Origin: a virus | DNA length: 35,044 bases | Strand: one strand, 5' to 3' | Virus record (IMG/VR): IMGVR_UViG_3300009506_000118 | Span: 1-35,044 of that record | Shown here: piece after piece, positions 4,790-19,561 of the stretch | Position numbering within the stretch: position 1 is the first letter of the stretch | Layout: every line of letters begins with the position of its first letter | Notes under the pieces: generated by a model | Told to the model about the DNA's origin: nothing | What the model saw: the letters and a program-made list of their open reading frames with translations, nothing else | Database searches by the model: none | Position numbers and translations under genes: made by a program

Positions 4790-5025
4790 TCAGGGAGCGA
4801 TACTATAGTCTGGGTGAATACGTGCATCAGTTCGATCATGCGAACCTGGACATGGATATCGATGTCGGCCATAATGTCAAGAGTGAGGCCACCATTCTGG
4901 CAAGGAAACAGGGTGTTAGGATTAAGTGGAAAGGAGATCTGAAGGTTCTTATCCTCCCGGCAGCGATCTGGGAAAAAGCAATTGATGCCGTTATCAATGA
5001 AAAAAGAGAAACAGAAGGAACTTAG
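4786..5025 (+). CDS. Hypothetical small protein
   Basis: Protein of 79 aa with Asp-rich (DMDIDVGHN) and beta-like segments. No recognised motif and no signal peptide. It overlaps the following glycosyltransferase gene by 29 bases, so it is probably translated together with the start of the glycan cluster. Confidence 0.6.
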   Translation: MIRERYYSLGEYVHQFDHANLDMDIDVGHNVKSEATILARKQGVRIKWKGDLKVLILPAAIWEKAIDAVINEKRETEGT

Positions 5026-6028
5026 TATTATCATTCCCTACATGAATGATGAGCAGTACCTGGAAACCACCATTCCGGTACTCCTTAATGGTATCAAAAA
5101 CAAGGATGCCGAGGTGATTATTATCGATAACGGAAGTTTTTCTCCCCTGCAGGTAAGTTACCCAAAGGTAAGAGTGATCCGAAACCAGAAAAATATCGGT
5201 GTAGGGGGCGCTTTCAATCAAGGGGTGGAGCTCGCTCAGAGCAACCGTCTGATCCTGATGGGCTGTGACGTGATGACCCGCAGGGGCTGGTACAACCGGG
5301 TTATCAAGACCCTGGACGAACATCCCTTTACGATCTTTAACTGTGTCAGCTCCGGGTTCTCCGATGCCAGCGAGACCGAACCCTTCCGCCCCAAGCGCTC
5401 CAAACGCTACGGAGCCTTTATCTTGTACAAGGTCCGTAAGCAGGATCTCCCGGGAAACAGCCCTTTACGCAATGATCCTAAGTTTTCCAAGATCCTGCAG
5501 GGAAAATGGAACTACCGGCAACCTTCCCAGGATGAGTTTATTCCGATCCGGTGCCTGATGGGTGCTTTTTACTGGATGCATAAGGATGACTTTCAGAGGA
5601 TCCATGGTTGGAACGGTCACCGGATGTGGGGCACACTCGAGCCCTTTCTGTCGATCAAGGCCCGCGCACATGGGATGAACCTCGTGGTAGACACCAAGCT
5701 GGAGACCGCCCATCACTTCGGTAGGAGCGTGTTGCGGCCCGGGCGTCCGGACCTGATGTACTACAACATGCTGTTCGCGGCCCACTCGATGTTCTCCGAA
5801 GCCCTGGCCCAGGAGCTCGAGTACTATCTTCGTTACGGGGACCGGGAGGAAAAGATCGAAAAGCTGAACGTGAATCAGGCCAGGGTTATGCTCAAACAGA
5901 ACCGGGGCCTGCTCATGAGAGAGAGGGACTACAACAACCGACACTTTATTGGAGGATTGATAAAGAGTATTGAACAGTTTGAGGAGAATTTTTACTTTCA
6001 CCCGGACCCACAAATTAATAAACGATAA
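4997..6028 (+). CDS. Glycosyltransferase family 2-like
   Basis: Protein of 343 aa (from the MKKEKQ start; an ATG four codons upstream is in frame). GT-A fold signals: the opening strand ELSIIIPYMNDEQYLETT, the strand EVIIIDNGS, the NIGVGGAFNQG loop typical of GT2 enzymes, and LILMGCDVM at the place of the DxD motif. Near 210-230 comes GWNGHRMWG followed by Glu, a usual acceptor/base region. It would move a sugar from a nucleotide donor, probably in the cytoplasm, since no membrane segment is present. It is the first gene of the glycan island. The DxD motif is not canonical (C-D-V), so donor and metal use are uncertain. Confidence 0.8.
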   Translation: MKKEKQKELSIIIPYMNDEQYLETTIPVLLNGIKNKDAEVIIIDNGSFSPLQVSYPKVRVIRNQKNIGVGGAFNQGVELAQSNRLILMGCDVMTRRGWYNRVIKTLDEHPFTIFNCVSSGFSDASETEPFRPKRSKRYGAFILYKVRKQDLPGNSPLRNDPKFSKILQGKWNYRQPSQDEFIPIRCLMGAFYWMHKDDFQRIHGWNGHRMWGTLEPFLSIKARAHGMNLVVDTKLETAHHFGRSVLRPGRPDLMYYNMLFAAHSMFSEALAQELEYYLRYGDREEKIEKLNVNQARVMLKQNRGLLMRERDYNNRHFIGGLIKSIEQFEENFYFHPDPQINKR

Positions 6029-6029
6029 A

Positions 6030-6248
6030 ATGGCACAGACAGAGGTTAACCTGGATTTTGTGAACTTCCTGCTCACCCTGGAGCGTAAGCTCGGTGAGAT
6101 CAACTCGATCATTACCGACTCGTACCAGCATCAGGATATGAACGAGGAAGATATCCTCCTGTTGGAGAAGCTGCACGGTCTCTACTACCGTGGAGAGGTC
6201 TCTTTTGGACAGGGTAATCTTGATACCAAACAATTAAAAGTTTTATAA
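6030..6248 (+). CDS. Hypothetical small acidic protein
   Basis: Protein of 72 aa starting one base after the GT2 stop. It is helical and acidic (NEEDILLLEKLHGLYYRGEV) with no known motif. It lies between two glycosyltransferase genes and may be an unrelated small phage gene. Confidence 0.6.
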   Translation: MAQTEVNLDFVNFLLTLERKLGEINSIITDSYQHQDMNEEDILLLEKLHGLYYRGEVSFGQGNLDTKQLKVL

Positions 6249-6249
6249 A

Positions 6250-6450
6250 ATGAAGTGGTTAAAAAAGTACAGAGTAGTATCTATCACGAACCCGATTATC
6301 GGTAAGGATGGGATCAAACAATACGACACCTGGATCGCTGAGGCTACCAAGGTAGAAATATATGACCGTGCCGTAGTGCTTCGACTCAATCGTAAGATTG
6401 TTTTCGTGGCTCCTATCGATAAGGTTGTGATTGAACTGGATAAGAGCTGA
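6250..6450 (+). CDS. Hypothetical small protein
   Basis: Protein of 66 aa, predicted as short beta strands (KYRVVSITNPI; IVFVAPIDKVVIEL) with a KQYDTW turn, resembling a small barrel. There is no recognised family. Its TGA overlaps the ATG of the next gene (TGATG). Confidence 0.6.
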   Translation: MKWLKKYRVVSITNPIIGKDGIKQYDTWIAEATKVEIYDRAVVLRLNRKIVFVAPIDKVVIELDKS

Positions 6451-7199
6451 TGGATCTCGTTGTTCTTACCGCTTTCCATGCCCGTTTTCTGCTGAACGAG
6501 GCCTTCGCCACGGCAATGGACCGGCTTCGCGAGGAGCTAGGAGTCCGTACTTACGTGGTAATTACACCAGGTGAGCCAGAAAATCGTGAGATCTGCGAGG
6601 AGCATGGGTTTACGTTCTGTCAGCACAAGAACAATCCGGTGAGCGATAAGCTGAATGCGGGGATGGCGCTACTTAAGGGCCAGGAGTGGAGTCACGTCAT
6701 GATCCTGGGATCAGACGACATACCATCCACTCAGTTCGTTAGGAACCAGATGTTCGGTGAGACCGAGGATTTTATTGCGATTCAAGACATGTGGTTCTGG
6801 GGAATGAATCCTAAACGTGCCGGGTATAATACCTTTTGGTACTGGTACGCGGGGTCCTCCCGCCTGGGCGCTGGAAGAGTGATCAGCCGCAGGGCTGTGG
6901 AGGCCTGTGACTACAAGATCTGGCCCAGTGGGTATAATGCCGGGATGGATTCCCAGTCCTATAAGAGGATCAAGCATGCGATAGGACAGGACCTGAAGGC
7001 AATGAGTTACCGAAACAAGGATACTGGCGGGTTCCTGGTGGATATCAAGTACGAACTGCATATCAGCAGCCTCTCACCCGTGATCCGCCGTGCTCAGGCA
7101 GAAAATCCAAATATTATTCGCAAACACCTTCCGGAAAAAGAGTGCGATTATTTATTCTGGTTGGATGAGAAAATCAAAAAGGAAAACTTTATAAAATGA
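6450..7199 (+). CDS. GT-A-type glycosyltransferase-like protein
   Basis: Protein of 249 aa. It opens with MDLVVLTAFHARFLL, has a nucleotide-sugar-type region (KNNPVSDKLNAGM) and a clear acidic site, HVMILGSDDIPS at about residues 88-99, matching the DxD-like SDD of GT-A enzymes. Trp- and Tyr-rich segments (MWFWGMNP; TFWYWYAGSSRLGAG) follow. It is probably a sugar transferase acting in the cytoplasm. The donor cannot be told. Its ATGA junction couples it to the 49-aa membrane gene. Confidence 0.65.
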   Translation: MDLVVLTAFHARFLLNEAFATAMDRLREELGVRTYVVITPGEPENREICEEHGFTFCQHKNNPVSDKLNAGMALLKGQEWSHVMILGSDDIPSTQFVRNQMFGETEDFIAIQDMWFWGMNPKRAGYNTFWYWYAGSSRLGAGRVISRRAVEACDYKIWPSGYNAGMDSQSYKRIKHAIGQDLKAMSYRNKDTGGFLVDIKYELHISSLSPVIRRAQAENPNIIRKHLPEKECDYLFWLDEKIKKENFIK

Positions 7200-7345
7200 T
7201 AGTTTTAGAATTATTTCCCAATGGGGTGATCGTTGGTGGCGGTGTAGTGGATACATTGATAGCCTGTGTGATCTGGGTATTTATTTATTATGGTATCAGT
7301 AAACTGAATGAACGTGAAGATTCTGGTCCTCTCATATTACGGTAA
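7196..7345 (+). CDS. Small single-pass membrane protein, 49 aa
   Basis: A short frame overlapping the previous stop by ATGA and the next glycosyltransferase start by 38 bases. The peptide has one hydrophobic segment at about 11-33 (VIVGGGVVDTLIACVIWVF) followed by a charged tail. The overlaps on both sides suggest it is a real coupled gene. The function is unknown; an anchoring role for the neighbouring split transferase is only a guess. Confidence 0.5.
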   Translation: MIVLELFPNGVIVGGGVVDTLIACVIWVFIYYGISKLNEREDSGPLILR

Positions 7346-7850
7346 CTCCACGGATGTTGGAGGTAAGCGCTGGAAGCTGTTGGTCGAACGGCTTTCCAAG
7401 AACCACATCGTCAAGGTGATCGCTTCGGACTGGATCCCGGATAAGCGGAAGAGCTCGTACCTAGTCAGGTTCCTGATCAATAACCTGATCTATCCCGATT
7501 ACCGGAAGTTGTTTCTGACAGAGTGTAAGAAAGCGATCGATTCAGGGTATTACGACCTTGTAATCTCCACCTATCCCCCCCTAGCTTCCATGCAGGCAGG
7601 CTATTATGCCAAACAAAGGGGAATGAAGTGGATCTGCGACCTCCGTGATCCCATTATTCTGTATGATAACCGGTGGGCTGGAAATACCAGGCTATCCAAC
7701 TGGATACGGATTAGGTTGATTGGAAAGTATCTGCGTGCTGCGGATTCCCTTATTTTTACCAATTCTTACCTTGTTTTCTCCTATATGGACGTTACGGGTT
7801 TTGATAAATTGATTAAAAAAGCGGACGTTATTTTTAACATGCATGAATAA
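7308..7850 (+). CDS. GT-B glycosyltransferase, N-terminal half (split GT4-like)
   Basis: Protein of 180 aa matching the N-terminal (acceptor) Rossmann domain of GT4-type enzymes. It opens VKILVLSYYGNSTDVGGKRW, has the LVISTYPPLA strand, then the WICDLRDP motif (normally WI-x-D-[FL]-RDP) near 110-117 and ends at the domain linker (ADSLIFTNSYLV). It stops where the C-terminal domain should begin. That domain is encoded by the next gene, in a different frame, overlapping by 8 bases. The two products probably assemble into one enzyme. A sequencing or evolutionary frameshift is the alternative, but a clean ATG start and stop at the linker favour a true split. Confidence 0.7.
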   Translation: MNVKILVLSYYGNSTDVGGKRWKLLVERLSKNHIVKVIASDWIPDKRKSSYLVRFLINNLIYPDYRKLFLTECKKAIDSGYYDLVISTYPPLASMQAGYYAKQRGMKWICDLRDPIILYDNRWAGNTRLSNWIRIRLIGKYLRAADSLIFTNSYLVFSYMDVTGFDKLIKKADVIFNMHE

Positions 7851-8292
7851 GAGCTTAATCTATACCGGTACCCTTACACCCTATCACAAATGGGCGACAG
7901 ATCTCTTAAAAGAGATCGGGGTATATTATCTGGCCGTAAGTAATCATCCCAATTATCAGGGACTGATCCAGCAATCCGGGTTCTGTTTGTCAATCATGCC
8001 AGATACTAAACACCCATACCCAATTGTTCAGGCTAAGATCTTCGATTATCTGAAGTATAAGAAGCCTATTATCCACATGACCAAACACTACGATGAGACA
8101 AGTATTATCATCAAGGACCTTGATGCTGGGATGAGTTACATCCAGGGGACAAGTAATCCGCAGGATATTTTGGATTTTATGAATGGCGAACACAAGTATT
8201 CTTACGACGGAAGATTCAGTGCAGATCGCGCTGTCGAACAGTTGGAAAAAATAATTTTTAAGACGTTATGGACCGCAGGCACAAATTTATAA
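7843..8292 (+). CDS. GT-B glycosyltransferase, C-terminal half (split GT4-like)
   Basis: Protein of 149 aa that begins with the strand typical of the C-terminal, donor-binding domain of GT4 enzymes (SLIYTGTLTPYHKW). It continues with a region where the nucleotide-sugar site would lie (FCLSIMPDTKHPYPIVQAKIFDYLKYKKPII), in which the usual acidic E-x7-E motif is reduced. Its ATG lies inside the end of the preceding N-terminal-half gene. Alone it lacks the acceptor domain, so it should need its partner. Its end overlaps the sulfotransferase gene by 25 bases. Confidence 0.65.
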   Translation: MNKSLIYTGTLTPYHKWATDLLKEIGVYYLAVSNHPNYQGLIQQSGFCLSIMPDTKHPYPIVQAKIFDYLKYKKPIIHMTKHYDETSIIIKDLDAGMSYIQGTSNPQDILDFMNGEHKYSYDGRFSADRAVEQLEKIIFKTLWTAGTNL

Positions 8293-8918
8293 TTAGCCCC
8301 GAATACAACTTTATCTATTACGAGATCCAGAAGTGTGCGACGGAAACCCTGCGGAAGTACTTTCTTGGGAACAAGAACCGAAATCGCAACCCGAATAAGT
8401 ACGGGGCAGTTCGCATTTCCGGCGGTTTATCCACAGTGGTTCCTTACCGCGCTGATGGTTTTTATCAGTTTACTTTTATCCGGAATCCGTTTGAGAGGAT
8501 TGTCAGTGCCTGGTTGAGTAAGTTTCCACAGTACCATGATCCAAAGCATCCGACCCTGCCAGGTATCAGGGATCCGAGGCTGTCACTTGACACAACTTTT
8601 GAGGAATTTGTCAGGTTTATTGCACAAATTCCTGACAAAAAGGCGGATTGTCACTTTAAGTCCATGCATGCTTTTTTACCGGATATAGAGAATGGAAGGG
8701 TCTGGACCTCTGATTTCACAATAGGAAGGGTTGAAAGTTTGGAATCTGATTTTAACTATATCAGAGTGAGGATAGGTCTTCCTTTAGATCCTATCCCCGT
8801 GGAGAATAAAACCAAAAAGGACAAACCTTGGAGGGAGTACTATACCCCGGAGCTCAGGGATCTGGTTGCTTTGCGCTATGCCAAGGATCTGAAAATATTT
8901 GGATATACTTTTGATTGA
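8268..8918 (+). CDS. Carbohydrate sulfotransferase-like (Sulfotransfer_2 type)
   Basis: Protein of 216 aa. The PAPS-binding signatures are visible: the 5'-phosphosulfate loop IQKCATETLRK at 20-30 (usually P-K-x-A-S/G-T-x-L) with Lys22, and the 3'-phosphate motif FTFIRNPFERIVSAW at 68-82 with Arg72 and Ser80. Enzymes of this family move sulfate from PAPS to hydroxyls of sugars. The host must supply PAPS, since no PAPS synthesis gene is visible. There is no membrane segment, unlike animal Golgi enzymes, so it would act in the cytoplasm. It sits among sugar transferases, which supports a sulfated glycan product. The C-terminal YTPELRDLVALRYAKDL helix also fits the family. Confidence 0.8.
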   Translation: MDRRHKFIISPEYNFIYYEIQKCATETLRKYFLGNKNRNRNPNKYGAVRISGGLSTVVPYRADGFYQFTFIRNPFERIVSAWLSKFPQYHDPKHPTLPGIRDPRLSLDTTFEEFVRFIAQIPDKKADCHFKSMHAFLPDIENGRVWTSDFTIGRVESLESDFNYIRVRIGLPLDPIPVENKTKKDKPWREYYTPELRDLVALRYAKDLKIFGYTFD

Positions 8919-9682
8919 TGATAAGTGTTATTCTAAACGTATACAAGCGACCCCATATGCTGGATAGGCAGATCGATGCCATCCTGGGCCAGACCATTCC
9001 AGTAGAACCACATAATATCCATGTGTGGTACAATTGGGCGGAGGGTTTTTCACCTTCACCCGCACCTGCGGAACAGAATGTCAAGACCTATTATTCCAGC
9101 TGGAACACCAAGTTCTTCGGTCGCTTCACCCTTCCCTTTCTCTGCCGGACCCCTTACATCGCTATCTTCGACGACGACAACATACCGGAGGCCCGCTGGC
9201 TGGAGAACTGCCTTACAGTTATTAACACGCCGGAGACCAACGGAATCCTGGGCGGCGTGGGAGTGATCATGAAAAATACCAAGAAGAAGTCACTGAGAAA
9301 GAACGAAAAACCTCTTTATCGAATAGGTTGGAACGGCTGGCACTTGGATCACACCGAGAGGGTGGATTATGTGGGACAGACCTGGTTCTTTCGGAAGGAG
9401 TGGGCTAAGTACATGTGGTACGAGGAACCCCGCAACTGGGACAACGGAGAGGACATCATGTTCTGTTACCTGGCCCAGAAGTATGGAGGGATCAATTGTT
9501 TCGTTCCTCCTCACCCGGATGACAATACCGAGCTGTGGTCCACGGATTACAATACTGCTTGGAGGGAGGGGCGGGATGAGAACGCATCCTGGAGGCTGGC
9601 TGGACATCGCGAGGTTCGTGAAAGCATTATGTGGCACTGTATCGATAATGGTTGGAAAACTGTACATGAAGTGACGAGATGA
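8918..9682 (+). CDS. Glycosyltransferase family 2-like
   Basis: Protein of 254 aa from the ATG that overlaps the previous TGA. GT2 features: MISVILNVYKRPHMLDRQI at the N-terminus and YIAIFDDDNIP near residues 83-93, a clear DDD metal site. A later segment, WDNGEDIMFCYLAQKYGG, carries the E-D pair expected for the catalytic base region. A HxxE/His-rich end follows. It is probably soluble and part of the glycan assembly line directly after the sulfotransferase gene. Confidence 0.8.
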   Translation: MISVILNVYKRPHMLDRQIDAILGQTIPVEPHNIHVWYNWAEGFSPSPAPAEQNVKTYYSSWNTKFFGRFTLPFLCRTPYIAIFDDDNIPEARWLENCLTVINTPETNGILGGVGVIMKNTKKKSLRKNEKPLYRIGWNGWHLDHTERVDYVGQTWFFRKEWAKYMWYEEPRNWDNGEDIMFCYLAQKYGGINCFVPPHPDDNTELWSTDYNTAWREGRDENASWRLAGHREVRESIMWHCIDNGWKTVHEVTR

Positions 9683-9694
9683 AAAATTATAGAG

Positions 9695-9937
9695 ATGGCG
9701 CATGATGATGTTTCTTTAATGAGATATGGATTTATCAAGGATGAATCTGGACTTTTGGAAGTATTATGGATGACGGATGATGGACACATGCACATGAAAT
9801 TAATGAAAACAGATACTGGTTATTGGGTGATATTGGAGAAAAATTCTTCTGGTCACCGCACATATATGAATATTGGTCACCTAACCTCTATTAAAAATAT
9901 TCTTGACTTAAGAGATCAATTAATAAAGACACAATAA
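9695..9937 (+). CDS. Hypothetical small protein
   Basis: Protein of 80 aa with alternating strands, rich in Met and His (TDDGHMHMKLMKTD), and a C-terminal helix (IKNILDLRDQLIKTQ). No family was recognised. Its DNA is more AT-rich than its neighbours. It interrupts the run of glycan enzymes and may be a small inserted phage gene. Confidence 0.6.
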   Translation: MAHDDVSLMRYGFIKDESGLLEVLWMTDDGHMHMKLMKTDTGYWVILEKNSSGHRTYMNIGHLTSIKNILDLRDQLIKTQ

Positions 9938-9942
9938 TAGAG

Positions 9943-10698
9943 ATGAAAGACTTTACCGAACACTTTTTCATGCTCTACAATAAACTCAAAAATAAGGAAC
10001 ACTATGCCTTCTCGAGATTCAGTGATGGCGAGCTCCGCATCATGGAGAACAAGGAGCTTATCCTGGGTGATAACTTCAACAAGATCGGAACCCGAAGGCG
10101 GAGAAGCCATTATACGCCTGAAGACCGTAAACATTTCGATCCCAAGTACCACCAGTACATCCGCCAGCGGCTAATGGACGCCTATCAGTACAAGAAAAAA
10201 AACTACTATGTGGGGTTGTCCTGCAGGTGCTGTGTAGGGCCAGCTGGGTTTAACAAGATGGTGAAGTGGAGGGGTGGTGATGACGAGTACCTGACATGGT
10301 CGAATCTCTGGGTCAATGCCAACTATCCGTTATTTGTTGAGCACATGATACCGGAATTCGGTAAGAATCGCATCGTTTATATTTGCAATGAGAATGCGAA
10401 TTTGTCTGGCTTGCCGTTCGAGGTGGAGAAGGATTTTCGGGTGGGAGACAACTGCATAGTCAATGATTTTCTGCTATACTGGGCCATTGGCGGCTGGATC
10501 CATCGGGAAGGTATCACGGATCGCGTGTTCCTGTTCAGTGCCAGCAGCCTCAGCAATGTCCTGATCTATGAACTCTACAGATGGTTTGGGCCCATTAATA
10601 CCTACCTGGACATTGGAACCACCCTGAATCCATATATTGGACTTCCTGGCACCAGGGGATACCTTACCGGTAAAAACCGCAAGCAATGCATTTGGTAA
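9943..10698 (+). CDS. GT-D-fold (DUF1792-like) glycosyltransferase
   Basis: Protein of 251 aa. The N-terminal AFSRFSDGELRIM (22-34) matches the [FY]xRFGDGE site of GT-D enzymes, with D28 and E30 as the DxE metal site. Near the C-terminus, VFLFSASSLSNVLIYEL and INTYLDIGTTLNPY match the usual 'GP/A-x-S...DIG' closing elements. GT-D enzymes add a further sugar, for example glucose, to a glycoprotein or polysaccharide glycan; the first described member extends the glycan of Ser-rich adhesins. That is notable here because Ser-rich virion proteins are encoded downstream. The exact donor is unknown. Confidence 0.7.
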   Translation: MKDFTEHFFMLYNKLKNKEHYAFSRFSDGELRIMENKELILGDNFNKIGTRRRRSHYTPEDRKHFDPKYHQYIRQRLMDAYQYKKKNYYVGLSCRCCVGPAGFNKMVKWRGGDDEYLTWSNLWVNANYPLFVEHMIPEFGKNRIVYICNENANLSGLPFEVEKDFRVGDNCIVNDFLLYWAIGGWIHREGITDRVFLFSASSLSNVLIYELYRWFGPINTYLDIGTTLNPYIGLPGTRGYLTGKNRKQCIW

Positions 10699-11081
10699 AG
10701 AATAAAGTCAAGTACTGGGAGTTCATCCGTAGGCTCCGGAACGATGAAAAAGTTAAGATTGGATTTATCAACCAGGATAATATAACTGTTGAACAACAGC
10801 TCGAATACATGGGAAAGTACAATGATAATTACTACATTTGTGTCCACCAGGGCATTCCGTTGGGATATATCGGCCAGGTAGATGGTGATATCCGCCTTGC
10901 CGTAACTCCCGCTTATCACGGACAGGGAGTGGCCACGTTTATGCTGACCAAGTTCATGACTCTATACCCGGAAGCCACGGCAAAGGTTAAGTTAGATAAT
11001 ATTGCAAGTAACAGATTGTTCCCTAGTTGCGGATTCGTACAATACGATCAGGATAAAAACTTTTTTTATTACAAGCTATGA
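10686..11081 (+). CDS. GNAT-family N-acetyltransferase
   Basis: Protein of 131 aa. The acetyl-CoA loop is LAVTPAYHGQGVATFML at 71-87, matching GNAT motif A with H-G-Q-G-V-A in place of the usual R-G-x-G-x-G/A. Strands before it and the VKLDNIASNRLFPSCGF segment after it (motif B) complete the fold. It would acetylate an amino group. The next gene is an aminotransferase with a 4-base overlap, so the pair could make an N-acetylated amino sugar, as in other nucleotide-sugar pathways. The substrate is inferred from context. Confidence 0.75.
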   Translation: MHLVKNKVKYWEFIRRLRNDEKVKIGFINQDNITVEQQLEYMGKYNDNYYICVHQGIPLGYIGQVDGDIRLAVTPAYHGQGVATFMLTKFMTLYPEATAKVKLDNIASNRLFPSCGFVQYDQDKNFFYYKL

Positions 11082-11704
11082 CACTTAAACACAGCAGAAA
11101 CAATCCCTACAACGTAGTGAGTATGTTTGAGGATGAGATCGAGGAATATACCGGAGCACCATATGCTATTGCCGTAGATAGTTGTACCAATGCCCTGTTT
11201 CTTTGCATGAAATATCTGGGAGTTGGTGGTCAGATGGTTATTCTTCCCAAAAAAACCTACTTATCTGTACCCATGATGCTCATTCATGCCGGTGGAATCC
11301 CGGTGTTTAAGGATATCGAGTGGTCCGGTATGTACCAGTTGGAGCCGCTTCCACTCTGGGACTCGGCCAAGCGCCTGACCAGCGGTATGTATAAAAATGG
11401 ACAATTTATTTGCCTATCTTTTCACATCAAGAAACAACTTGGAATTGGGAAGGGGGGTATGATTCTAACCGATGATTGGGAGGCGAAAAGCTGGTTTAAG
11501 ATGGCCAGATATGAAGGAAGGTCTGAAATGAACTATAAGGATGATAACATCAAGATGTTGGGCTGGAACATGTACATGACGCCCCAGCAGGCCGCTCATG
11601 GATTGGCCTTGATACAGAATTATCCAGAGCACATGCCGGACCTGGGAGAGAATGACGGGTACAAGGATCTTACTGAAAACGATATCTTTAAGCAGTATGT
11701 ATAA
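11078..11704 (+). CDS. DegT/DnrJ/EryC1-type aminotransferase, short form
   Basis: Protein of 208 aa resembling the large PLP domain of sugar aminotransferases: YAIAVDSCTNALFL near 29-42 (phosphate-binding serine/threonine region), D95 in WDSAKR (pairs with PLP nitrogen) and the catalytic SFHIKKQLGIGKGGMILTDD segment with K119 in the SFHxxK position. Typical members have 360-400 aa; the C-terminal small domain is missing here. It could act as a dimer with reduced substrate specificity, or be an active remnant. The order GNAT-aminotransferase suggests synthesis of an N-acetylamino sugar. Confidence 0.7.
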   Translation: MTLKHSRNNPYNVVSMFEDEIEEYTGAPYAIAVDSCTNALFLCMKYLGVGGQMVILPKKTYLSVPMMLIHAGGIPVFKDIEWSGMYQLEPLPLWDSAKRLTSGMYKNGQFICLSFHIKKQLGIGKGGMILTDDWEAKSWFKMARYEGRSEMNYKDDNIKMLGWNMYMTPQQAAHGLALIQNYPEHMPDLGENDGYKDLTENDIFKQYV

Positions 11705-12260
11705 CCATAATAAAAAACTGGTTTTTGTCCACGTACCACGTACCGGAGGGACCGCGATCAAGAATTCATTGGGCGGATTTCGGAAACCAGGGGTGGGCTA
11801 TCACGAGAACTGGGAGACGATTAAGGCCGCTAATCCAAAGGCGTGGGAAAATTACTTTAAGTTTTCCGTGGTAAGAAATCCCTGGGACCGGGTCTATTCC
11901 ATCTACAGCTATTACAAAAATAGTCCACGTCAAAGGACAGGGGTCAAACCCAGGGAGCTTCCGGATATGTTTGAGGATTTTGTGTGGGATCTCAGCCGGT
12001 ATCTTGGCATTCTTGGACTCAATTACAATCAGTGTGAATATATTGGGGATGAGCTTAATTTTGTTTGCAGGTTTGAGAATCTCAGGAATGATTTTAAGTA
12101 CATGTGTAAGCTCGCTGGGGTAACTCCTGTTCGTGAGTTTGAACGAAAAAGGGAATCGCGCAGGGATCCAAATTATACGAATGTTTATAATTCACAACTG
12201 GAGTACATTGTAGAATCTTACTTTGCGGAGGATATTGAAAAATATGGATATGAATACTAA
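11697..12260 (+). CDS. Second sulfotransferase-like protein
   Basis: Protein of 187 aa from the ATG that overlaps the aminotransferase stop by 8 bases. The 5'-phosphosulfate motif is VHVPRTGGTAIKN at 11-23, with Arg at the place of the usual Lys of PKTGGT. The 3'-phosphate motif is FKFSVVRNPWDRVYSIYSYY at 54-73 with R60 and S68. It has the compact size of bacterial and viral family-2 sulfotransferases. It is not a close copy of the enzyme at 8268-8918, so the two may sulfate different sugars or positions. The Lys-to-Arg change leaves some doubt about activity. Confidence 0.75.
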   Translation: MYNHNKKLVFVHVPRTGGTAIKNSLGGFRKPGVGYHENWETIKAANPKAWENYFKFSVVRNPWDRVYSIYSYYKNSPRQRTGVKPRELPDMFEDFVWDLSRYLGILGLNYNQCEYIGDELNFVCRFENLRNDFKYMCKLAGVTPVREFERKRESRRDPNYTNVYNSQLEYIVESYFAEDIEKYGYEY

Positions 12261-13074
12261 GAGAATAGCACTCTGTCTCTATGGTTACTTTAACAATAAA
12301 ACTAATCCGCACGCGGGGATACGTGGGTATCAGTACATTAAAGAAAATATACTGGATAAATATGTTACAGATGTTTACCTGCATTCTTGGGACGCGGACA
12401 ACGATAGTCTGATTCTGTCCCTGTATAATCCTATCAGTTGCACCATCGAGACCCAGATAGACTTTAATCCGATAGCTAGAGCGGAAGGGATAGATGAGGA
12501 TTGGATCAATGGAAGATATAAGAGGAAGGGTTCGCGATTCGCGAATTGTACAGTTCACAACTCCTTAAGCTTCTTTTATTCTCGTTCTCAGGCGATTTGG
12601 CATAAGTGTTGGGGGGAGATCGAGTTGGGTATTATCTACGATTATGTGATTGTATGCAGATTCGATCTTGGCCAGCGCAGCGGAGTGCACCGCGGGTTTA
12701 ATGTTTCGAAGATGCCGTTCGATCCAAAATTATCAATGGAGTTTATCTACAGCGCGATGTGGGACCAGCTCAATGCCGGATACGCCGATCAGTGGTTCTT
12801 TTCCAATAGCGCCAATATCGATAAGCTCGGGACGATGTATTCTGCATCACTTGAGTATTTAAGGCCCTATAGTTTTTATTTTACAATGTTAACAGGTGGA
12901 TGGCCCGAGAGTAACAGTAATGATGAATTCTCAAATGAACGGTTAGGGGGTCCGGGCACTTTTTATCCGGTGAAGTATCCCAGGTGGCAGATGATTAACA
13001 ATCATATCCTGCATAAGTGGCACTTTATTCAAACCGGATTGTATGAAAAATCCAAATTTTTAGACGGGACATGA
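12250..13074 (+). CDS. Glycosyltransferase-like protein of the glycan island
   Basis: Protein of 274 aa; an in-frame ATG lies two codons upstream. The opening KRIALCLYGYFNN, then KENILDKYVTDVYLHSWD and later YDYVIVCRFDLGQ, is a pattern I associate with uncharacterised glycosyltransferase-like proteins of viruses and polysaccharide clusters: an HSWD site and a CRFD acidic motif. No membrane segment is present. The function is inferred from this pattern and from its position between sugar-modifying genes. Confidence 0.5.
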   Translation: MNTKRIALCLYGYFNNKTNPHAGIRGYQYIKENILDKYVTDVYLHSWDADNDSLILSLYNPISCTIETQIDFNPIARAEGIDEDWINGRYKRKGSRFANCTVHNSLSFFYSRSQAIWHKCWGEIELGIIYDYVIVCRFDLGQRSGVHRGFNVSKMPFDPKLSMEFIYSAMWDQLNAGYADQWFFSNSANIDKLGTMYSASLEYLRPYSFYFTMLTGGWPESNSNDEFSNERLGGPGTFYPVKYPRWQMINNHILHKWHFIQTGLYEKSKFLDGT

Positions 13075-13745
13075 AACCAACACTCGTACTTTACACGCAC
13101 ACGGATATGGCTGATGTCTGGCCCATCTTCTTTGGACAGGTCTCGAAGTACATGTGGCAGTACCGGAAGATTGTTTATGTGGACCGGTATACGGATTTAA
13201 TACCATTGGATTACGAGAAGATTATTTATGATGATCGGTTGTCCTATAGGAAGAGGATGCTTTTTAGTCTCGCCCGGACCAACGATTTGGTGATCCTGTT
13301 CCAGCACGAGGATATGTTCCTGTATGATGCCCCGATGTTATCTGTTGTAGAGGATATGGCAGATGCGCTCATGCATCCGGGAGGACCTGCTTTCATGCGC
13401 CTGGTGCCCGTAGACGAGGATGTGGAGCGTAAGTATGGGTTCACGGTTCAACCAGCCATCTGGCCCCGGCAGCGTCTGTATAAGCTCCTGGATCAGTCCC
13501 GGGGAGAATCGATCTGGGACCTGGAGACTAAATCCAGGAGAGCTTTTCATCGATTAGCCTATAACAGTATCTCGATTCAGAAAGGGGAGAAGAGGGGGAA
13601 GTATCACTACGATTCGCCCATGTTCCCGGCCTGCGCCACAGCAATAACCAAAGGGAGGTGGAATACCAAGGAATATGGAAAGGAACTGGCAGAATTATTC
13701 TTTAAGTATAAGATCGATCCAAACGAAAGGGGAACCAATGATTAA
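13071..13745 (+). CDS. Unknown protein of the glycan island
   Basis: Protein of 224 aa with an ATGA junction to the gene before. Alternating strands and helices begin at PTLVLYTHTDMADVW, followed by KIVYVDRYTDL and DLVILFQHEDMFLYD. The H-E-D in the last segment could be a metal site of a GT-A-like fold. Similar proteins are often found beside glycosyltransferases, but I cannot name the family. Its end overlaps the bifunctional gene that follows by 8 bases. Confidence 0.5.
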   Translation: MKPTLVLYTHTDMADVWPIFFGQVSKYMWQYRKIVYVDRYTDLIPLDYEKIIYDDRLSYRKRMLFSLARTNDLVILFQHEDMFLYDAPMLSVVEDMADALMHPGGPAFMRLVPVDEDVERKYGFTVQPAIWPRQRLYKLLDQSRGESIWDLETKSRRAFHRLAYNSISIQKGEKRGKYHYDSPMFPACATAITKGRWNTKEYGKELAELFFKYKIDPNERGTND

Positions 13746-15111
13746 GGCTGTTATTTTTGATCTGGACGGCGTCCTTGTAGAACTCAAGGATGCCCATTTT
13801 GAGTGTCTGAACCGCGCACTTGCCGGTATTGGGGAAGAGTATGTGATTTCCATAGATGATCATTACGGAAAGTTTGACGGTCTTCCTACCCGTAATAAGT
13901 TACAAATGCTCACCGAGGACAGGGGGCTTCCGGAGAAGGAATACTGGCAGATCAACGACTGGAAGCAACGGTTTACTATTGGATATATCGAAGACCGGGT
14001 CGAGCGATCCCAGGATCTAAGAAATCTGATGGCCTGGTTAAATGCCAGCAGAATAAAGATTGCGGTTGCCTCCAACTCGGTTCGCAATACGATCTACACC
14101 GCGTTGGTTAAGCTCGGGGTAATCACTTATGTGGACTTTATTCTCTCCAACCAGGATGTAGTAAATGCCAAACCTAACCCAGAGATCTATTTAAAAACAA
14201 TAGCCGGACTTGGATTAAAGCCGGAGGAGTGCCTGGTGGTGGAGGATAGTCCATACGGGGTCAATGCAGCGGTAGCGAGTGGAGCCCGCGTTATGCGTGT
14301 GGCAGGAACGGGTGAGGTTAAAAAGTCCAACATCGAAAACTTTATCAAAACAATGAATATGGAAACCACTATAAAAAAATGGTCCGCCCCGAAGTGGAAA
14401 GTTTTGATCCCTATGGCCGGTGCCGGAAGTAGGTTCGAGAAGGCCGGTTATACCTTCCCCAAACCCCTTATCGAGGTCAATGGCAAACCTATGATCCAGG
14501 TCGTGGTAGAAAACCTGGGAATAGACGCCGAGTTTATCTACATCGTGCAGGAGGAGCACTACAAGAAGTACAATCTCTGGCACTTTCTCAACCTTCTTAC
14601 CCCGAACTGCAGGGTGATTACCATAAATGAGCTGACCGAAGGTGCCGCCTGTACTACCTTACTCGCCAAGAACATGATTAATAATGGCGATCATCTTCTG
14701 ATTGCTAATTCCGATCAGTTCGTGGAATGGGATTCTAATAGGTTTTATTACTCCATGGAAGACTCCGGAGTAGATGGCGGGATCCTGTGTTTCTACAATA
14801 CTCATCCGAAGTGGAGCTACGTTCAGCTCAATGACCGCGGGTTCGTGACCGAGGTGGCCGAGAAGGTACCGATAAGTACGAATGCAACGGTTGGAATCTA
14901 TTACTGGAAAAAAGGCAGCGATTATGTAAAATACGCTGAACAAATGATCCAAAAGAATATCCGCACCAATGGAGAGTTTTACGTGGCGCCAGTCTTTAAT
15001 GAGGCCATTGAGGCGGGGGCCAGGATAAGGTCCTTCTACGCCGAGCAGATGTGGGGTCTGGGCACTCCGGAGGATCTTGATCATTATTTAAAACACCATG
15101 GACGTAACTGA
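13738..15111 (+). CDS. Bifunctional HAD phosphatase / sugar-phosphate nucleotidyltransferase
   Basis: Protein of 457 aa made of two domains. Residues 1-205 are a beta-phosphoglucomutase-like HAD enzyme: D8-x-D10 in FDLDGV, VASNS at 110-114, K145, and E169-D170 in VVEDSPYG. Residues 218-457 are a nucleotidyltransferase: IPMAGAGSRF at 224-233 and FPKPL at 240-244, then an NSDQ acidic site (IANSDQFVEW). The start is the ATG overlapping the previous stop; an upstream extension in frame is less likely. The fusion would process a sugar phosphate and activate it as a nucleotide sugar, giving a donor for the transferases. The exact sugar and nucleotide are unknown. Confidence 0.85.
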   Translation: MIKAVIFDLDGVLVELKDAHFECLNRALAGIGEEYVISIDDHYGKFDGLPTRNKLQMLTEDRGLPEKEYWQINDWKQRFTIGYIEDRVERSQDLRNLMAWLNASRIKIAVASNSVRNTIYTALVKLGVITYVDFILSNQDVVNAKPNPEIYLKTIAGLGLKPEECLVVEDSPYGVNAAVASGARVMRVAGTGEVKKSNIENFIKTMNMETTIKKWSAPKWKVLIPMAGAGSRFEKAGYTFPKPLIEVNGKPMIQVVVENLGIDAEFIYIVQEEHYKKYNLWHFLNLLTPNCRVITINELTEGAACTTLLAKNMINNGDHLLIANSDQFVEWDSNRFYYSMEDSGVDGGILCFYNTHPKWSYVQLNDRGFVTEVAEKVPISTNATVGIYYWKKGSDYVKYAEQMIQKNIRTNGEFYVAPVFNEAIEAGARIRSFYAEQMWGLGTPEDLDHYLKHHGRN

Positions 15112-15709
15112 TGCAAAATATGCAATAGTTGTCCAGGGACCGTCGATGTACTATCCTATTTTGAGGCATAAATTTCGCGGTTTCAGCGTTATCTGGTCTA
15201 CCTGGAATGGAGAACGGGTGCCATGGATGAAAGGAGAAGTTGTTCTGAACAAGGTTCCGGAAATCAAGGGCACGCGCAACATCGCGATGCAACAGATCAG
15301 TACCTACAACGGGATCTTAAGGGCCAAAGAGCTTGGGTTTGAGCGGGTATTTAAGTGGAGAAGCGATATGTACCCTATCGGCATGCATAGAATACTTAAG
15401 CTATTGGATTTCAGCAGTATCAATATGATGTACTATCACAATCATCGCGATGGATACTTTGTGGACTTCTTCATGGAGGGGGATGTTGATACCATGCTTA
15501 AGATCTGGGACTTCAAGGATTTTGATGTTGAATATCCGGAGCTGGCCATCAAAAACAGCATCATTAAACACAGGATCGACAATATTTCATTCTTTGGTGA
15601 TGGGATAACGGAGGACAACGATATCTTTTGGATCAAGAAAGGGTTCTTTTTATCAGAATGCAGATCAAACGAAAGATTAACTTGCAATTATGAGATTCAT
15701 AGCACATAG
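15098..15709 (+). CDS. WavE-like lipopolysaccharide synthesis protein
   Basis: Protein of 203 aa. AIVVQGPSMYY at the start, VIWSTWNGE, then NIAMQQISTYNGILRAKEL and VFKWRSDMYP match the WavE family pattern (VVQGP...STW...NRQ...GL..A...KxRSD). WavE was named from an LPS core cluster in Vibrio and is thought to be a glycosyltransferase. The R-S-D segment is the likely metal site. It is shorter than typical members. The C-terminal part keeps a WIKKGFFLSE stretch. It overlaps its neighbours by 14 and 20 bases. Confidence 0.65.
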   Translation: MDVTDAKYAIVVQGPSMYYPILRHKFRGFSVIWSTWNGERVPWMKGEVVLNKVPEIKGTRNIAMQQISTYNGILRAKELGFERVFKWRSDMYPIGMHRILKLLDFSSINMMYYHNHRDGYFVDFFMEGDVDTMLKIWDFKDFDVEYPELAIKNSIIKHRIDNISFFGDGITEDNDIFWIKKGFFLSECRSNERLTCNYEIHST

Positions 15710-16166
15710 GGGGAACCTTGACGGACCAGATCCCAAGAACGAGAATACGTTGAATGCAATTAATATAGCAATTGCCGCAGGGTTTGATGTGGAGATTGAT
15801 ATTTGGCATGTAAATAATAGATTTTTTCTTGGACATGATTATCCGAAGTGTTATGTAGATGAATCTTTTTTAATTGATCACAGCAGTCGTCTTTGGTGTC
15901 ACGCGAAGACACTTCAGGCATTATATGCTCTTCTCGACATGCCAATGATGGAATGTTTTTTCCATAATATCGATCAATATACTCTTACTTCCAATGATCT
16001 TATTTGGACTTATCCAGATATGCCCGTTACAGATAAATCTATTATGCTTTTGTTTGAAAAATTTTCACTAGAGGATGCAAAAATACCTGAATATATCTAC
16101 GGACTTTGTAGTGATCACATAAAATACTACCGCAATGCTTTTAATCAGTTACGGGACCAGACCTGA
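15690..16166 (+). CDS. GDPD-like phosphodiesterase family protein
   Basis: Protein of 158 aa with all short motifs of the glycerophosphodiester phosphodiesterase fold at the N-terminus: H6-R7-G8, E18-N19-T20, E35-x-D37 and H49-D50. It resembles a compact subgroup found in capsule clusters and large viruses (RLWCHAKTLQALYAL; TLTSNDLIWTYPD; YIYGLCSDHI). Such proteins may cut or form a phosphodiester on the glycan, for example glycerol phosphate. At half the length of usual GDPD it is still complete for this subgroup as I remember it. The DNA is AT-rich compared with the flanking genes. Confidence 0.65.
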   Translation: MRFIAHRGNLDGPDPKNENTLNAINIAIAAGFDVEIDIWHVNNRFFLGHDYPKCYVDESFLIDHSSRLWCHAKTLQALYALLDMPMMECFFHNIDQYTLTSNDLIWTYPDMPVTDKSIMLLFEKFSLEDAKIPEYIYGLCSDHIKYYRNAFNQLRDQT

Positions 16167-17142
16167 ATACATCAAGATTAAACCACTAATCGATTATCTT
16201 TGGAAAGCAGATTATCCTTTTGTGGTGTGCAGGATCCGACAACATGAGAATCTTGTAGATAATTGTTACTTTGATTTTGAGTTAAAAGTAAGGGATAGAT
16301 ATAGTAGGTTAGATTGTCTTGTAGAATCTGCCCTGCATTGGTATAAGTGGAAGTATCCTTATACTCTCCCTGATATTACCCATGTTTTGGTGCAAGGGGA
16401 TACTACATCGGCAATGGCTATGGCACTTACTTCTTTTCATGCCGGTCTTAAGGTTATCCACATGGAGGCCGGTCTTCGATCGTGTGATGATAAAAATCCC
16501 TGGCCAGAAGAAGTTAATAGAAAACTCATATCTCAACTAGCAGATATCCATCTTTGTCCCACTCACAGTAATATGGTGAACCTAATCAATGAGAACGTAA
16601 CGGGTAAGAAGTACGTGGTCGGGAACACCTCGATTGATAGTATCAAAGAGCTTGGGTTCCAGTCAGCATATGGTGATCATGTGGTTATTACCCTGCATCG
16701 CCGGGAAAACTGGCCGATTATGGATAAGTGGTTTACACAATTGAATCTGATTGCTGGAAAGAGTAAGCTTAAGTTTATCTTTCCCATGCATCCCGGGGAG
16801 GCCGTCCAGAAGCACCGGGCGAAACTAAAAAACATTCAGATCCTGGATCCCATTGACCACGAAGGAATGGCCGAGTTGATCTCCGGAGCCCGCCTGGTTA
16901 TTACCGACAGCGGAGGCATCCAAGAAGAATGTTCTTACTATAAAAAGATTTGCCTGGTCTGCAGAACTACCACCGAACGAGTAGAATCCCTAGGGAAGAG
17001 TACGATCCTGATCAAACATCCGGAGGAACTACCCATACAGTTCGGCTACTATGAATATGAGTATAAAATAAACTGGCCTTGTCCCTACGGAGACGGGAGG
17101 GCCTCAGAGCAGATTTATGAAATCTTAAAGGATTTGAAATGA
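16135..17142 (+). CDS. wecB: UDP-N-acetylglucosamine 2-epimerase
   Basis: Protein of 335 aa, slightly shorter than typical (about 375). Family motifs in order: GTRPEYIKIKPLI at 7-19, VQGDTTSAMA, HMEAGLRS, PEEVNRKL, VITLHRRENW with the catalytic His, FPMHPG, and ITDSGGIQEE. The enzyme interconverts UDP-GlcNAc and UDP-ManNAc, giving a ManNAc-type donor for polysaccharide. It overlaps the GDPD-like gene by 32 bases and couples to the next gene by ATGA. An alternative is a related epimerase acting on a modified UDP-sugar. Confidence 0.9.
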   Translation: MLLISYGTRPEYIKIKPLIDYLWKADYPFVVCRIRQHENLVDNCYFDFELKVRDRYSRLDCLVESALHWYKWKYPYTLPDITHVLVQGDTTSAMAMALTSFHAGLKVIHMEAGLRSCDDKNPWPEEVNRKLISQLADIHLCPTHSNMVNLINENVTGKKYVVGNTSIDSIKELGFQSAYGDHVVITLHRRENWPIMDKWFTQLNLIAGKSKLKFIFPMHPGEAVQKHRAKLKNIQILDPIDHEGMAELISGARLVITDSGGIQEECSYYKKICLVCRTTTERVESLGKSTILIKHPEELPIQFGYYEYEYKINWPCPYGDGRASEQIYEILKDLK

Positions 17143-17714
17143 AACTGAATTGGACCGGTACCGACAGCCTGATGCTCGTGGATTATTCCATGCGCACCTT
17201 CCGAAAGAAGGTTTACTGGTGGATTTTCCGGAGATTAATCCGTGTTATGGAATATTTCATCGAGGGACATTTGTGTGATTCTGAACTGGTATTTAGGAAT
17301 GTTGTTAGGTTTGGAACTCGCAAGCCTATTTGGACATTGCTTCCCAAACTAACCTATACCGAGAAATTTCCAAAAAAAGAACACTCAACCTTTACCGTTC
17401 TGTATTATTTCCCACGGGGCGGTGATTTAAAATTTACACAATGGCTGTATGGATGGGATATCTTCAAGGCCGTTTGTCGTGCCTTTCCGGAATTCAGATA
17501 TGTGGTTGTGGAAGGCGATTCCGATATGGAATATATTTTCCCGGAGGTAGATTTTTACCTTCGTCCGAACCGGCACGACGGGTCTTCGAGATTGAGGATG
17601 GAGTGTGAGATCCAGGAAATACCTTATTATTGGTCTGTGCAGAACCCAGATCTCCCAAGAATATTTGTTATGATCGATGAATGTTACCAGCAGTGGCTGC
17701 AAGGAAGAAAATAA
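17139..17714 (+). CDS. GT-B-like glycosyltransferase, C-terminal domain type
   Basis: Protein of 191 aa. TFTVLYYFPRGGDLKFTQW, EFRYVVVEGDSD and the segment FYLRPNRHDGSSRLRMECE look like the donor domain of a GT-B enzyme, where R-x-x-x-HDG-x3-x3-E is the nucleotide-sugar site. The N-terminal 80 residues are short, Trp/Arg-rich (RTFRKKVYWWIFRRLI) and too small for a full acceptor domain. It may be a reduced transferase or work with a partner protein. Confidence 0.55.
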   Translation: MKLNWTGTDSLMLVDYSMRTFRKKVYWWIFRRLIRVMEYFIEGHLCDSELVFRNVVRFGTRKPIWTLLPKLTYTEKFPKKEHSTFTVLYYFPRGGDLKFTQWLYGWDIFKAVCRAFPEFRYVVVEGDSDMEYIFPEVDFYLRPNRHDGSSRLRMECEIQEIPYYWSVQNPDLPRIFVMIDECYQQWLQGRK

Positions 17715-18070
17715 AGCGAGCGGTTCGCATCAAGGTTTATTATGACCGTTCGGGTCCGTACATTAATTATGTCAGGAACCTTATGGTCATCGCCGTTGCC
17801 TATAAGGTCTATGAGGATGCCGCCATCGGGAGGTGGATCTATTCCAACCGGTACTGGGTGATTCCTGTTATTCTGGTATCCTATGTGTTGGGTAGAATAA
17901 TTATAGGGTTTACTGACAAAAGGATGAGAATCCGAGAATATGAGCTAGAGGAATATAACCGCACAAATCCTGATCTTCAAGACATTAAAAGCGGAGTTAC
18001 CAAAATACTCAATAAGTTAGATGAGAATAATTCAGTTAGCAACGATCCCGGGCAGGGAGGAAAGCCTTAA
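17681..18070 (+). CDS. Two-pass membrane protein
   Basis: Protein of 129 aa overlapping the previous gene by 34 bases. A basic N-terminus precedes two hydrophobic segments at about 33-42 and 60-78 (WVIPVILVSYVLGRIIIGF). A charged C-terminal coiled coil follows (EYELEEYN; KSGVTKILNKLDEN). It could recruit the soluble glycan enzymes to the membrane, but nothing in the sequence proves this. Another option is a lysis or envelope protein. Confidence 0.55.
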   Translation: MLPAVAARKKIKRAVRIKVYYDRSGPYINYVRNLMVIAVAYKVYEDAAIGRWIYSNRYWVIPVILVSYVLGRIIIGFTDKRMRIREYELEEYNRTNPDLQDIKSGVTKILNKLDENNSVSNDPGQGGKP

Positions 18071-18680
18071 GAAGACCATTAACAGCCTGCTCCCCCAGTC
18101 CGATGTCATTCAGGTGGTACTGAACGGCCACGATTCTGTTCCGGAATTTTTGGACAATTCCAAGATCGAAGTTATCCAGAGCGACAACCGGTATGGAGAT
18201 GCTGCCAAGTTCCTGAACACGGAGAGGCGGGATGGCTACATCCTGACCTGTGATGATGACCTGGCCTATCCGGAGGGATACGTTGGTTACATGATCGATG
18301 GCGTGAATCGCCACCAGGCCGCGGTAAGTTTGCTCGGTAAGATCTACGATAACCGTCCGGTCAATTCCTTCCGGGGTGGTTATACCCAGATATTCCGCTG
18401 CCTTACAAGCGTGAAGAATGATCATCGTGTGGATATCGGTGGTACGGGGGCAATGGCTTTTCATACCGATCTACTGAAGCTGTCTGTTAAGGATTTCCCA
18501 AGGAAAAACATGGCCGATATCTGGTTCGCCAGGGCCGCAAAGGAGCAAAACGTACCTATTTACGTACTTGCCCATCCCGCCCGTTACGTCAAGCACACCC
18601 TGCATAGCCGCAGGATCTGGGTGATGACTTCCAAGTGGGATCGGTACCAGACCAAGATCCTAAATGAATTCCTGAAATAA
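18021..18680 (+). CDS. GT-A-type glycosyltransferase, last gene of the island
   Basis: Protein of 219 aa. MRIIQLATIPGREESLKKTI at the start and YILTCDDDLAYPEGYVGYM near 74-90 give a clear GT-A layout with a DDD metal site. A Gly-rich GGTGAMAFHTDLL segment and a later D-x-W-F-A region (NMADIWFARAAKE) fit the acceptor side. It overlaps the membrane gene by 50 bases. It is followed by a promoter, a short non-coding unit and a terminator, so the operon ends here. Confidence 0.75.
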   Translation: MRIIQLATIPGREESLKKTINSLLPQSDVIQVVLNGHDSVPEFLDNSKIEVIQSDNRYGDAAKFLNTERRDGYILTCDDDLAYPEGYVGYMIDGVNRHQAAVSLLGKIYDNRPVNSFRGGYTQIFRCLTSVKNDHRVDIGGTGAMAFHTDLLKLSVKDFPRKNMADIWFARAAKEQNVPIYVLAHPARYVKHTLHSRRIWVMTSKWDRYQTKILNEFLK

Positions 18681-18856: not shown

Positions 18857-19561
18857 ATGTTACTCAAGACCGAGATTACGGAGTATACCGGCCATGTATT
18901 TAAGAAACTCGGGTATCACGTAATAAACACAGATAAGATACAGAAACCCAAGGCCGTTAATGGATCCGGCTCCTGGTTTTTTTATGTTGCCAATCAGAGG
19001 GACCGGCGCAGCAAGCCCCTGCCGGTATATTGCAATAGCACGGTCGTAGATATCCGCCTTGCGCTGGACACGCCCCTGCACTCGAACAGGATGGAATTAC
19101 GTATCTTTCCGGATAATGATGACAGTCAAGACCCCATTATTAAGTACATTAACTACGATCAGTTTGTGCACGCTTCTGCCAGGGTCAGCAACGGCAATCA
19201 TTCCTGGGTAACGTATACGGAGGGTTTTTCAGAGATTCGTGTTTTGATCCTGGGATCACTGGATTGGCTCGTGGATATGGCTGAAACAGGGACCTCGACC
19301 ACCTCTAGCACATCGACATCTTCGACCTCATCGAGTTCTAGCTCGTCTAGCTCGAGTTCGTCGAGTTCCAGCTCCAGCACCTCGAGCAGTTCGACCTCAT
19401 CGAGCTCTACGTCCAGTTCCACAACCGAAAGTTATACCGATACGTATTTGTTTGATGACGGGGTGGATCAATTCAGGTGGCAGGTCAGAGACGGAAATTT
19501 ATGCATCGATAAGTATGTTGGTGGTACCTGGGTAAACATAGATGAATTATCGTTACCATGA
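18857..19561 (+). CDS. Virion protein with a mucin-like Ser/Thr tract
   Basis: Protein of 234 aa in three parts. Residues 1-143 are a beta-rich domain, clearly paralogous to the protein at 23436-23978: both have DRRSKP at 49-54, an LDTPLHSN/FDTALDSN-MEL segment and a [YI]DY[SD]xF block. Residues 145-190 are almost only Ser and Thr, about 46 in a row. Residues 195-234 are a short module (FRWQVRDGNLCIDKYVGGTW) that resembles the repeats of the next gene. No signal peptide is present. I infer a structural, exposed protein, such as a head fibre or tail fibre attachment, with a flexible linker that could carry O-glycans. Mixed TCN and AGY serine codons show selection for the amino acid, not a simple DNA repeat. 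Confidence 0.75.
   Translation: MLLKTEITEYTGHVFKKLGYHVINTDKIQKPKAVNGSGSWFFYVANQRDRRSKPLPVYCNSTVVDIRLALDTPLHSNRMELRIFPDNDDSQDPIIKYINYDQFVHASARVSNGNHSWVTYTEGFSEIRVLILGSLDWLVDMAETGTSTTSSTSTSSTSSSSSSSSSSSSSSSSSTSSSSTSSSSTSSSTTESYTDTYLFDDGVDQFRWQVRDGNLCIDKYVGGTWVNIDELSLP

Follow-up and report, generated by a model that had tools for sequence, protein, structure and literature searches.

The stretch of DNA analysed here, referred to as the window, is the linear IMG/VR virus record IMGVR_UViG_3300009506_000118, a fragment of 35,044 bases that encodes a DnaB-like helicase, a terminase and a portal protein. A series of sugar-enzyme genes, all on the plus strand, occupies about 13.7 kb (about positions 4,982 to 18,680) between the helicase gene and the structural genes downstream. 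Inside this cassette we find two genes, ST-A (8268-8918, plus strand, 216 amino acids) and ST-B (11697-12260, plus strand, 187 amino acids), whose products are apparently intact sulfotransferases of the type dependent on 3'-phosphoadenosine 5'-phosphosulfate (PAPS), equipped with the binding residues and the predicted fold of such enzymes. Both proteins match the Pfam family PF03567 (Sulfotransfer_2) above its curated cut-off of 22 bits, ST-A with 77.3 bits (E 2.7e-21) and ST-B with 37.2 bits (E 4.6e-9), and this family was matched in none of 14 control genomes. Both also match phrog_3347, annotated as 'Galactose-3-O-sulfotransferase'. A preliminary description had proposed, from the sequence alone, two divergent sulfotransferases at these positions that carry 5'-phosphosulfate and 3'-phosphate motifs and are surrounded by many sugar enzymes; our analysis bears out each of these points.

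The 5'-phosphosulfate loop of ST-A reads IQKCATETLRK, with Lys22 as the loop lysine, and its 3'-phosphate motif FIRNPFERIVSAW (RNPFERIVS) provides Arg72 and Ser80. The corresponding loop of ST-B is VPRTGGTAIK, with Arg15 at the usual lysine position, and its 3'-phosphate motif VVRNPWDRVYSIY (RNPWDRVYS) provides Arg60 and Ser68. Both 3'-phosphate motifs fit the P-x-x-R-x-x-S pattern described for the PB helix (PMC11625862). Loss of the PAPS-binding residues had been named beforehand as the observation that would speak against two sulfotransferases; checked at the level of sequence and fold, no such loss was found, the sole deviation being the arginine in the loop of ST-B. AlphaFold2 models of ST-A and ST-B reached confidence (pLDDT) values of 79.8 and 91.6, respectively. 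In a second look with VIA-align, ST-A was superimposed on the heparan sulfate sulfotransferase HS2ST (4ndz; Z 10.4, root-mean-square deviation 4.0, 183 aligned residues), and ST-B on SULT1C3 (Z 10.9, deviation 3.1, 168 aligned) and on HS6ST (5t03; Z 10.6, deviation 3.7, 171 aligned); every match shown for either protein was a sulfotransferase-fold chain. Searches of the PDB with phmmer and single sequences yielded nothing useful.

Conservation was counted in 51 aligned sulfotransferases, all distinct, from viruses and bacteria. The 3'-phosphate arginine is invariant and the serine is present in 48 proteins, and the loop position is occupied by lysine in 39 and by arginine in nine of them (ST-B and eight others). 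According to a review, sulfotransferases share a loop lysine or arginine, a serine in the PB helix and a histidine or glutamate as base, and they move sulfate from PAPS onto a hydroxyl or amine of the acceptor in a single step; mycobacterial Stf0 provides a precedent for arginine in place of the loop lysine (PMC11625862). Arg15 of ST-B looks derived, since a full-length orthologue (46% identity) in the identical slot of another virus (L120; IMG/VR contig 3300033049_000053) possesses the canonical lysine. A viral scan with ST-B and this orthologue gained no second close orthologue.

His36 of ST-B aligns with the histidine of the HS6ST segment GLHADW and would seem to be the base used by this enzyme; its equivalent is kept in 42 of the 51 proteins. 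The alignment has a gap at this position in all four proteins of the supported clade to which ST-A belongs. An AD-x-HFKS motif is common to ST-A and the two relatives compared, and its His129, judged by conservation in these close relatives only, is probably the catalytic base of ST-A. The two enzymes would in this case use different bases, an arrangement consistent with two acceptors or two positions. One or both proteins might instead have kept the fold and sulfate something other than a sugar, such as a small molecule, a lipid or tyrosine, or be degenerate. The acceptor is not fixed by the family label, ST-B carries Arg15 for lysine, and ST-A lacks the histidine common to most relatives, all of which speaks for such an alternative. 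However, arginine occupies the loop in nine family members and in Stf0, the entire clade of ST-A lacks the histidine in question while two relatives share His129 instead, and both reading frames are intact and coupled to their neighbours. We regard this alternative as improbable.

ST-A and ST-B share 22% identity over 167 amino acids. In a 48-sequence tree, whose deep forks are unresolved, ST-A groups with L074, L070 (from a cyanobacterial plasmid) and L075 (support 99/91), and ST-B falls outside this clade. A recent duplication giving rise to the pair was rejected on the grounds of this low identity and the separate clades. Used as single-protein queries against viral contigs, neither ST-A nor ST-B found relatives, and small alignments were needed; a scan of genome contigs with ST-A returned one locus only, in Halioglobus. 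At its 5' end the reading frame of ST-A overlaps the frame before it, and at its 3' end a glycosyltransferase gene of the GT2 family. The open frame of ST-B begins at 11652, its ATG at 11697 overlaps the upstream stop codon, so that the gene begins just ahead of the end of a short DegT gene, and the following frame begins before ST-B ends. Because both genes overlap neighbouring frames, they are placed like members of a co-translated operon; both are translationally coupled to their neighbours inside the cassette.

The cassette, encoded throughout on the plus strand, opens with a GT2 glycosyltransferase (4982-6028) that weakly matches the GtrB-like O-antigen conversion family phrog_841. It is followed by a GT4-like glycosyltransferase (7308-8292; weak match, N-terminal half only) apparently carried as two overlapping frames (7308-7850 and 7843-8292), through either a natural split or a frameshift. 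Downstream of ST-A lie a second GT2 enzyme (8915-9682) and an unnamed protein (9943-10698) with no Pfam or PHROG match above cut-off, which is likely a sugar transferase; in L120 its homologue is fused behind that of the GT2 enzyme. A GNAT N-acetyltransferase (10686-11081) and a half-length DegT/DnrJ aminotransferase of 208 amino acids (11078-11704) precede ST-B. Behind ST-B follow two conserved cassette proteins, one matching phrog_13607 (12223-13074, with a start probably at 12244 or 12250) and one without family match (13071-13745). Next are a fusion of a HAD (beta-phosphoglucomutase-like) domain with a sugar nucleotidyltransferase (13732-15111), a WavE-like protein (15098-15709; E 0.035, below cut-off), a phrog_34507 protein recurrent in the cassette (15690-16166), a non-hydrolysing UDP-N-acetylglucosamine 2-epimerase of the WecB type (16135-17142; 209.8 bits, cut-off 210.15) and, at the 3' end, a third GT2 enzyme (18021-18680). 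Our working labels 'GTD' for 9943-10698 and 'GDPDlike' for 15690-16166 reflect a presumed resemblance.

The half-length DegT protein anchors a cassette that recurs in many viruses, and this recurrence across virus contigs is what is new here. With this protein as a probe, 102 IMG/VR viral stretches were matched and 80 loci with 48-72% identity were kept, near-duplicates among which cause the locus counts to overstate the number of independent cases. The protein thus represents a conserved viral family, found at no fewer than 80 (at least 80) IMG/VR loci, typically of about 200-220 amino acids and without the C-terminal part of full-length DegT. Across 81 copies, its Asp95 and Lys119 are retained at a rate of at least 95%, as would be expected for an enzyme dependent on pyridoxal 5'-phosphate. 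The 80 loci include 40 with a homologue of the GT2 enzyme at 8915-9682, 46 with one of the 9943-10698 protein, 50 with one of the GNAT protein and 33 with one of WecB; the usual gene order is GT2, (WecB), 9943 homologue, GNAT, half-length DegT. In a subset of loci, homologues of 12223-13074 and 13071-13745, of the HAD-nucleotidyltransferase fusion and of 15690-16166 come next. In L120 (L120:6100-8648), the GT2 enzyme is fused to the 9943 homologue and the GNAT protein to the half-length DegT, which supports joint action within each pair.

A sulfotransferase is found nearby in only six of these 80 loci. A near-identical pair of contigs (L114 and L117) carries one in the ST-B slot, that of L114 being 31% identical to ST-B. 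L033, an otherwise different phage whose 9943 protein, GNAT and half-length DegT are 52%, 50% and 61% identical to those of the window, lacks ST-B in the block itself; a sulfotransferase is located further down and is immediately followed by a gene for adenosine 5'-phosphosulfate (APS) kinase (L033:9531-10262; TIGR00455, 175.5 bits, cut-off 138.7). In L015, whose HAD-nucleotidyltransferase fusion is 56% identical to that of the window, an APS-kinase-like gene (L015:8589-9038; 65 bits, below cut-off) directly follows the sulfotransferase. Because most copies of the cassette are devoid of a sulfotransferase, sulfation appears to be an optional trait, a step inserted at different places into a shared sugar pathway. 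For the same reason, we do not favour a link to hosts that live on sulfated polysaccharides; masking of the particle and mimicry of such polysaccharides, both raised in the preliminary description, are guesses.

Of 38 records searched for APS kinase (PF01583), 13 had a match, which adjoins a sulfotransferase in L033 and L015; a Bacteroides control genome, among others, also had one. Genes for APS kinases or similar proteins adjoin viral sulfotransferases at L017:7603-7995 and L022:2949-3779 as well, and only that of L033 passes the apsK cut-off. The literature searched contained nothing on viral genomes in which a sulfotransferase is accompanied by cysC. The presence of two sulfotransferases in one phage is not unusual: two or more (at least two) PF03567 matches occurred in about a quarter of 41 virus records searched whole, a count that is biased as nearly all of these records were picked for having at least one sulfotransferase. 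The 167-kb contig L012 (IMGVR_UViG_3300009103_000004) has eight Sulfotransfer_2 matches, which sit among glycosyltransferases, FkbM-like methyltransferases and other sugar genes, as named by frame reading. In the whole-record search of L054 (IMGVR_UViG_3300013126_001964), a single TAG was seen to interrupt the sulfotransferase frame; it could be decay, an error or a reassigned stop codon. Among the neighbours of viral sulfotransferases in general, enrichment for sugar enzymes is weak: glycosyltransferases, epimerases and APS kinase are the few families that recur among 113 near neighbours, and some glycosyltransferases are likewise found among 94 genes lying farther away. The sugar context is consequently a property of certain lineages and not of all viral sulfotransferases.

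Two divergent sulfotransferases that have kept their binding residues and are set in a cassette of sugar enzymes are most economically explained by a sulfated glycan as their product, a reasonable suggestion of the preliminary description. We propose, with a probability of roughly 70%, that ST-A and ST-B are cytoplasmic, PAPS-dependent carbohydrate sulfotransferases that serve two different positions of a glycan built by the cassette. WecB would provide a nucleotide sugar of the N-acetylmannosamine type, the half-length DegT and the GNAT protein would form an acetamido sugar, and the glycosyltransferases would assemble a short chain. Each sulfotransferase would then add sulfate in one SN2-like step, with His36 as the base in ST-B and probably His129 in ST-A, so that two positions of the glycan would be sulfated, one per enzyme. 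No match to APS kinase was found in the 35-kb window fragment, so the host would have to supply the PAPS; provision of PAPS by the window itself was rejected for the same reason.

Several observations weigh against this proposal. The model of ST-A is the weaker one, with low confidence over residues 39-59, its Foldseek E-value is 0.008 at best, and its slot held no sulfotransferase in any other cassette locus. The usual loop lysine is replaced in ST-B. A search of whole contigs with PF03567 found a sulfotransferase in five of 48 cassette contigs and none in the other 43. Membership in the family does not fix the substrate and leaves room for sulfation of proteins, lipids or small molecules, and as the window is a linear 35-kb fragment, genes for PAPS supply or export may lie outside it.

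As to the location of the glycan, we lean tentatively toward virion proteins, which we consider somewhat likelier destinations than a glycan of the host surface. The reasons are that the cassette precedes structural genes and that neither a clear flippase or polymerase nor a membrane-anchored glycosyltransferase was recognised. The competing view, a possible one to which we attach somewhat less weight, holds that the two enzymes modify a capsule or O-antigen of the host, thereby blocking competing phages or adapting the receptor. The many sugar enzymes of the cassette, the weak matches of 4982-6028 to GtrB-like phrog_841 and of 15098-15709 to WavE of lipopolysaccharide synthesis, and a putative polysaccharide-lyase-14-like stretch in 19932-22160, which hints at a polysaccharide receptor, all accord with it. 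On the other hand, no GtrA-like flippase was recognised in the window either, a membrane-like segment is present in only one frame (17681-18070) between 4982 and 18680, and no integrase, and hence no sign of lysogeny, was noticed in this fragment. A third view, that the cassette serves to hypermodify bases of the phage DNA, first with sugar and then with sulfate, draws on a passage in one report that links sulfotransferases to predicted base-modification systems of phages (PMC10829341, citing Iyer et al. 2013). We deem it very unlikely: no thymidylate synthase (PF00303) was matched in the window or in the L033, L015 and L012 contigs, other base-modifying families not having been searched, and the enzymes for amino sugars, together with WecB, speak for glycans.

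As proteins, ST-A and ST-B are members of a family that is already known; of greater interest is the recurrent half-length DegT cassette, into which sulfotransferases are plugged. The heparan sulfate 6-O- and 2-O-sulfotransferases of PF03567 resemble them in the PAPS loop, the 3'-phosphate arginine and serine and the fold, and also in the histidine aligned with His36 of ST-B. The two viral proteins differ from these solved enzymes by their smaller size, the missing membrane anchor and an identity of only 13-20%. Phage sulfotransferases of the same family (phrog_3347), such as those of Stenotrophomonas phage DLP_6 and phage CBW1004C-Prop1, show 25-33% identity, but each of these two phages has a single gene, which in the annotated stretches does not lie within a sugar cassette. 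What phage sulfotransferases do has been called unclear (PMC10580990). The huge phages LR756508 and LR756500 likewise carry sulfotransferases among glycosyltransferases and sugar-nucleotide enzymes, three of them in tandem in the 484-kb LR756508, although their sugar pathways are different ones, Kdo- or sialate-like by frame reading. Flavobacterium phage immuto possesses a glycosylation cassette with glycosyltransferases and the same half-length DegT (39% identity), yet has no Sulfotransfer_2 match in its whole genome. One could envisage a mobile glycan cassette, marked by the half-length DegT and common to many environmental phages of different kinds, with interchangeable sulfotransferases as tailoring enzymes and in some cases its own APS kinase, that yields a doubly sulfated virion glycan in the present virus; taken as a whole, we hold this to be rather unlikely. 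The occurrence of two divergent sulfotransferases in a recurrent syntenic cassette, with an APS kinase as neighbour in related viruses, makes it testable whether phage-made glycans carry sulfate, and some viral APS kinases can be read as a source of PAPS for sulfation and not for cysteine synthesis.

The terminase of the window is closest to that of Cellulophaga phage phi18:3 and its relatives (24.7% identity), and its portal protein is distant kin of the phi18:3 portal (21.7% identity), so that a host among the Bacteroidota is plausible. Used as a single-protein query against viral contigs, the terminase found no relatives, and scans for promoters and terminators stayed at chance level. The large protein encoded at 19932-22160 has a hydrophobic N-terminus and weakly matches polysaccharide lyase family 14 (E 3e-4, below cut-off); it could be a secreted or tail depolymerase. 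Finally, positions 19290-19418 and 23881-23961 encode Ser/Thr-rich low-complexity linkers that reside in two different proteins and whose coding repeats are related.

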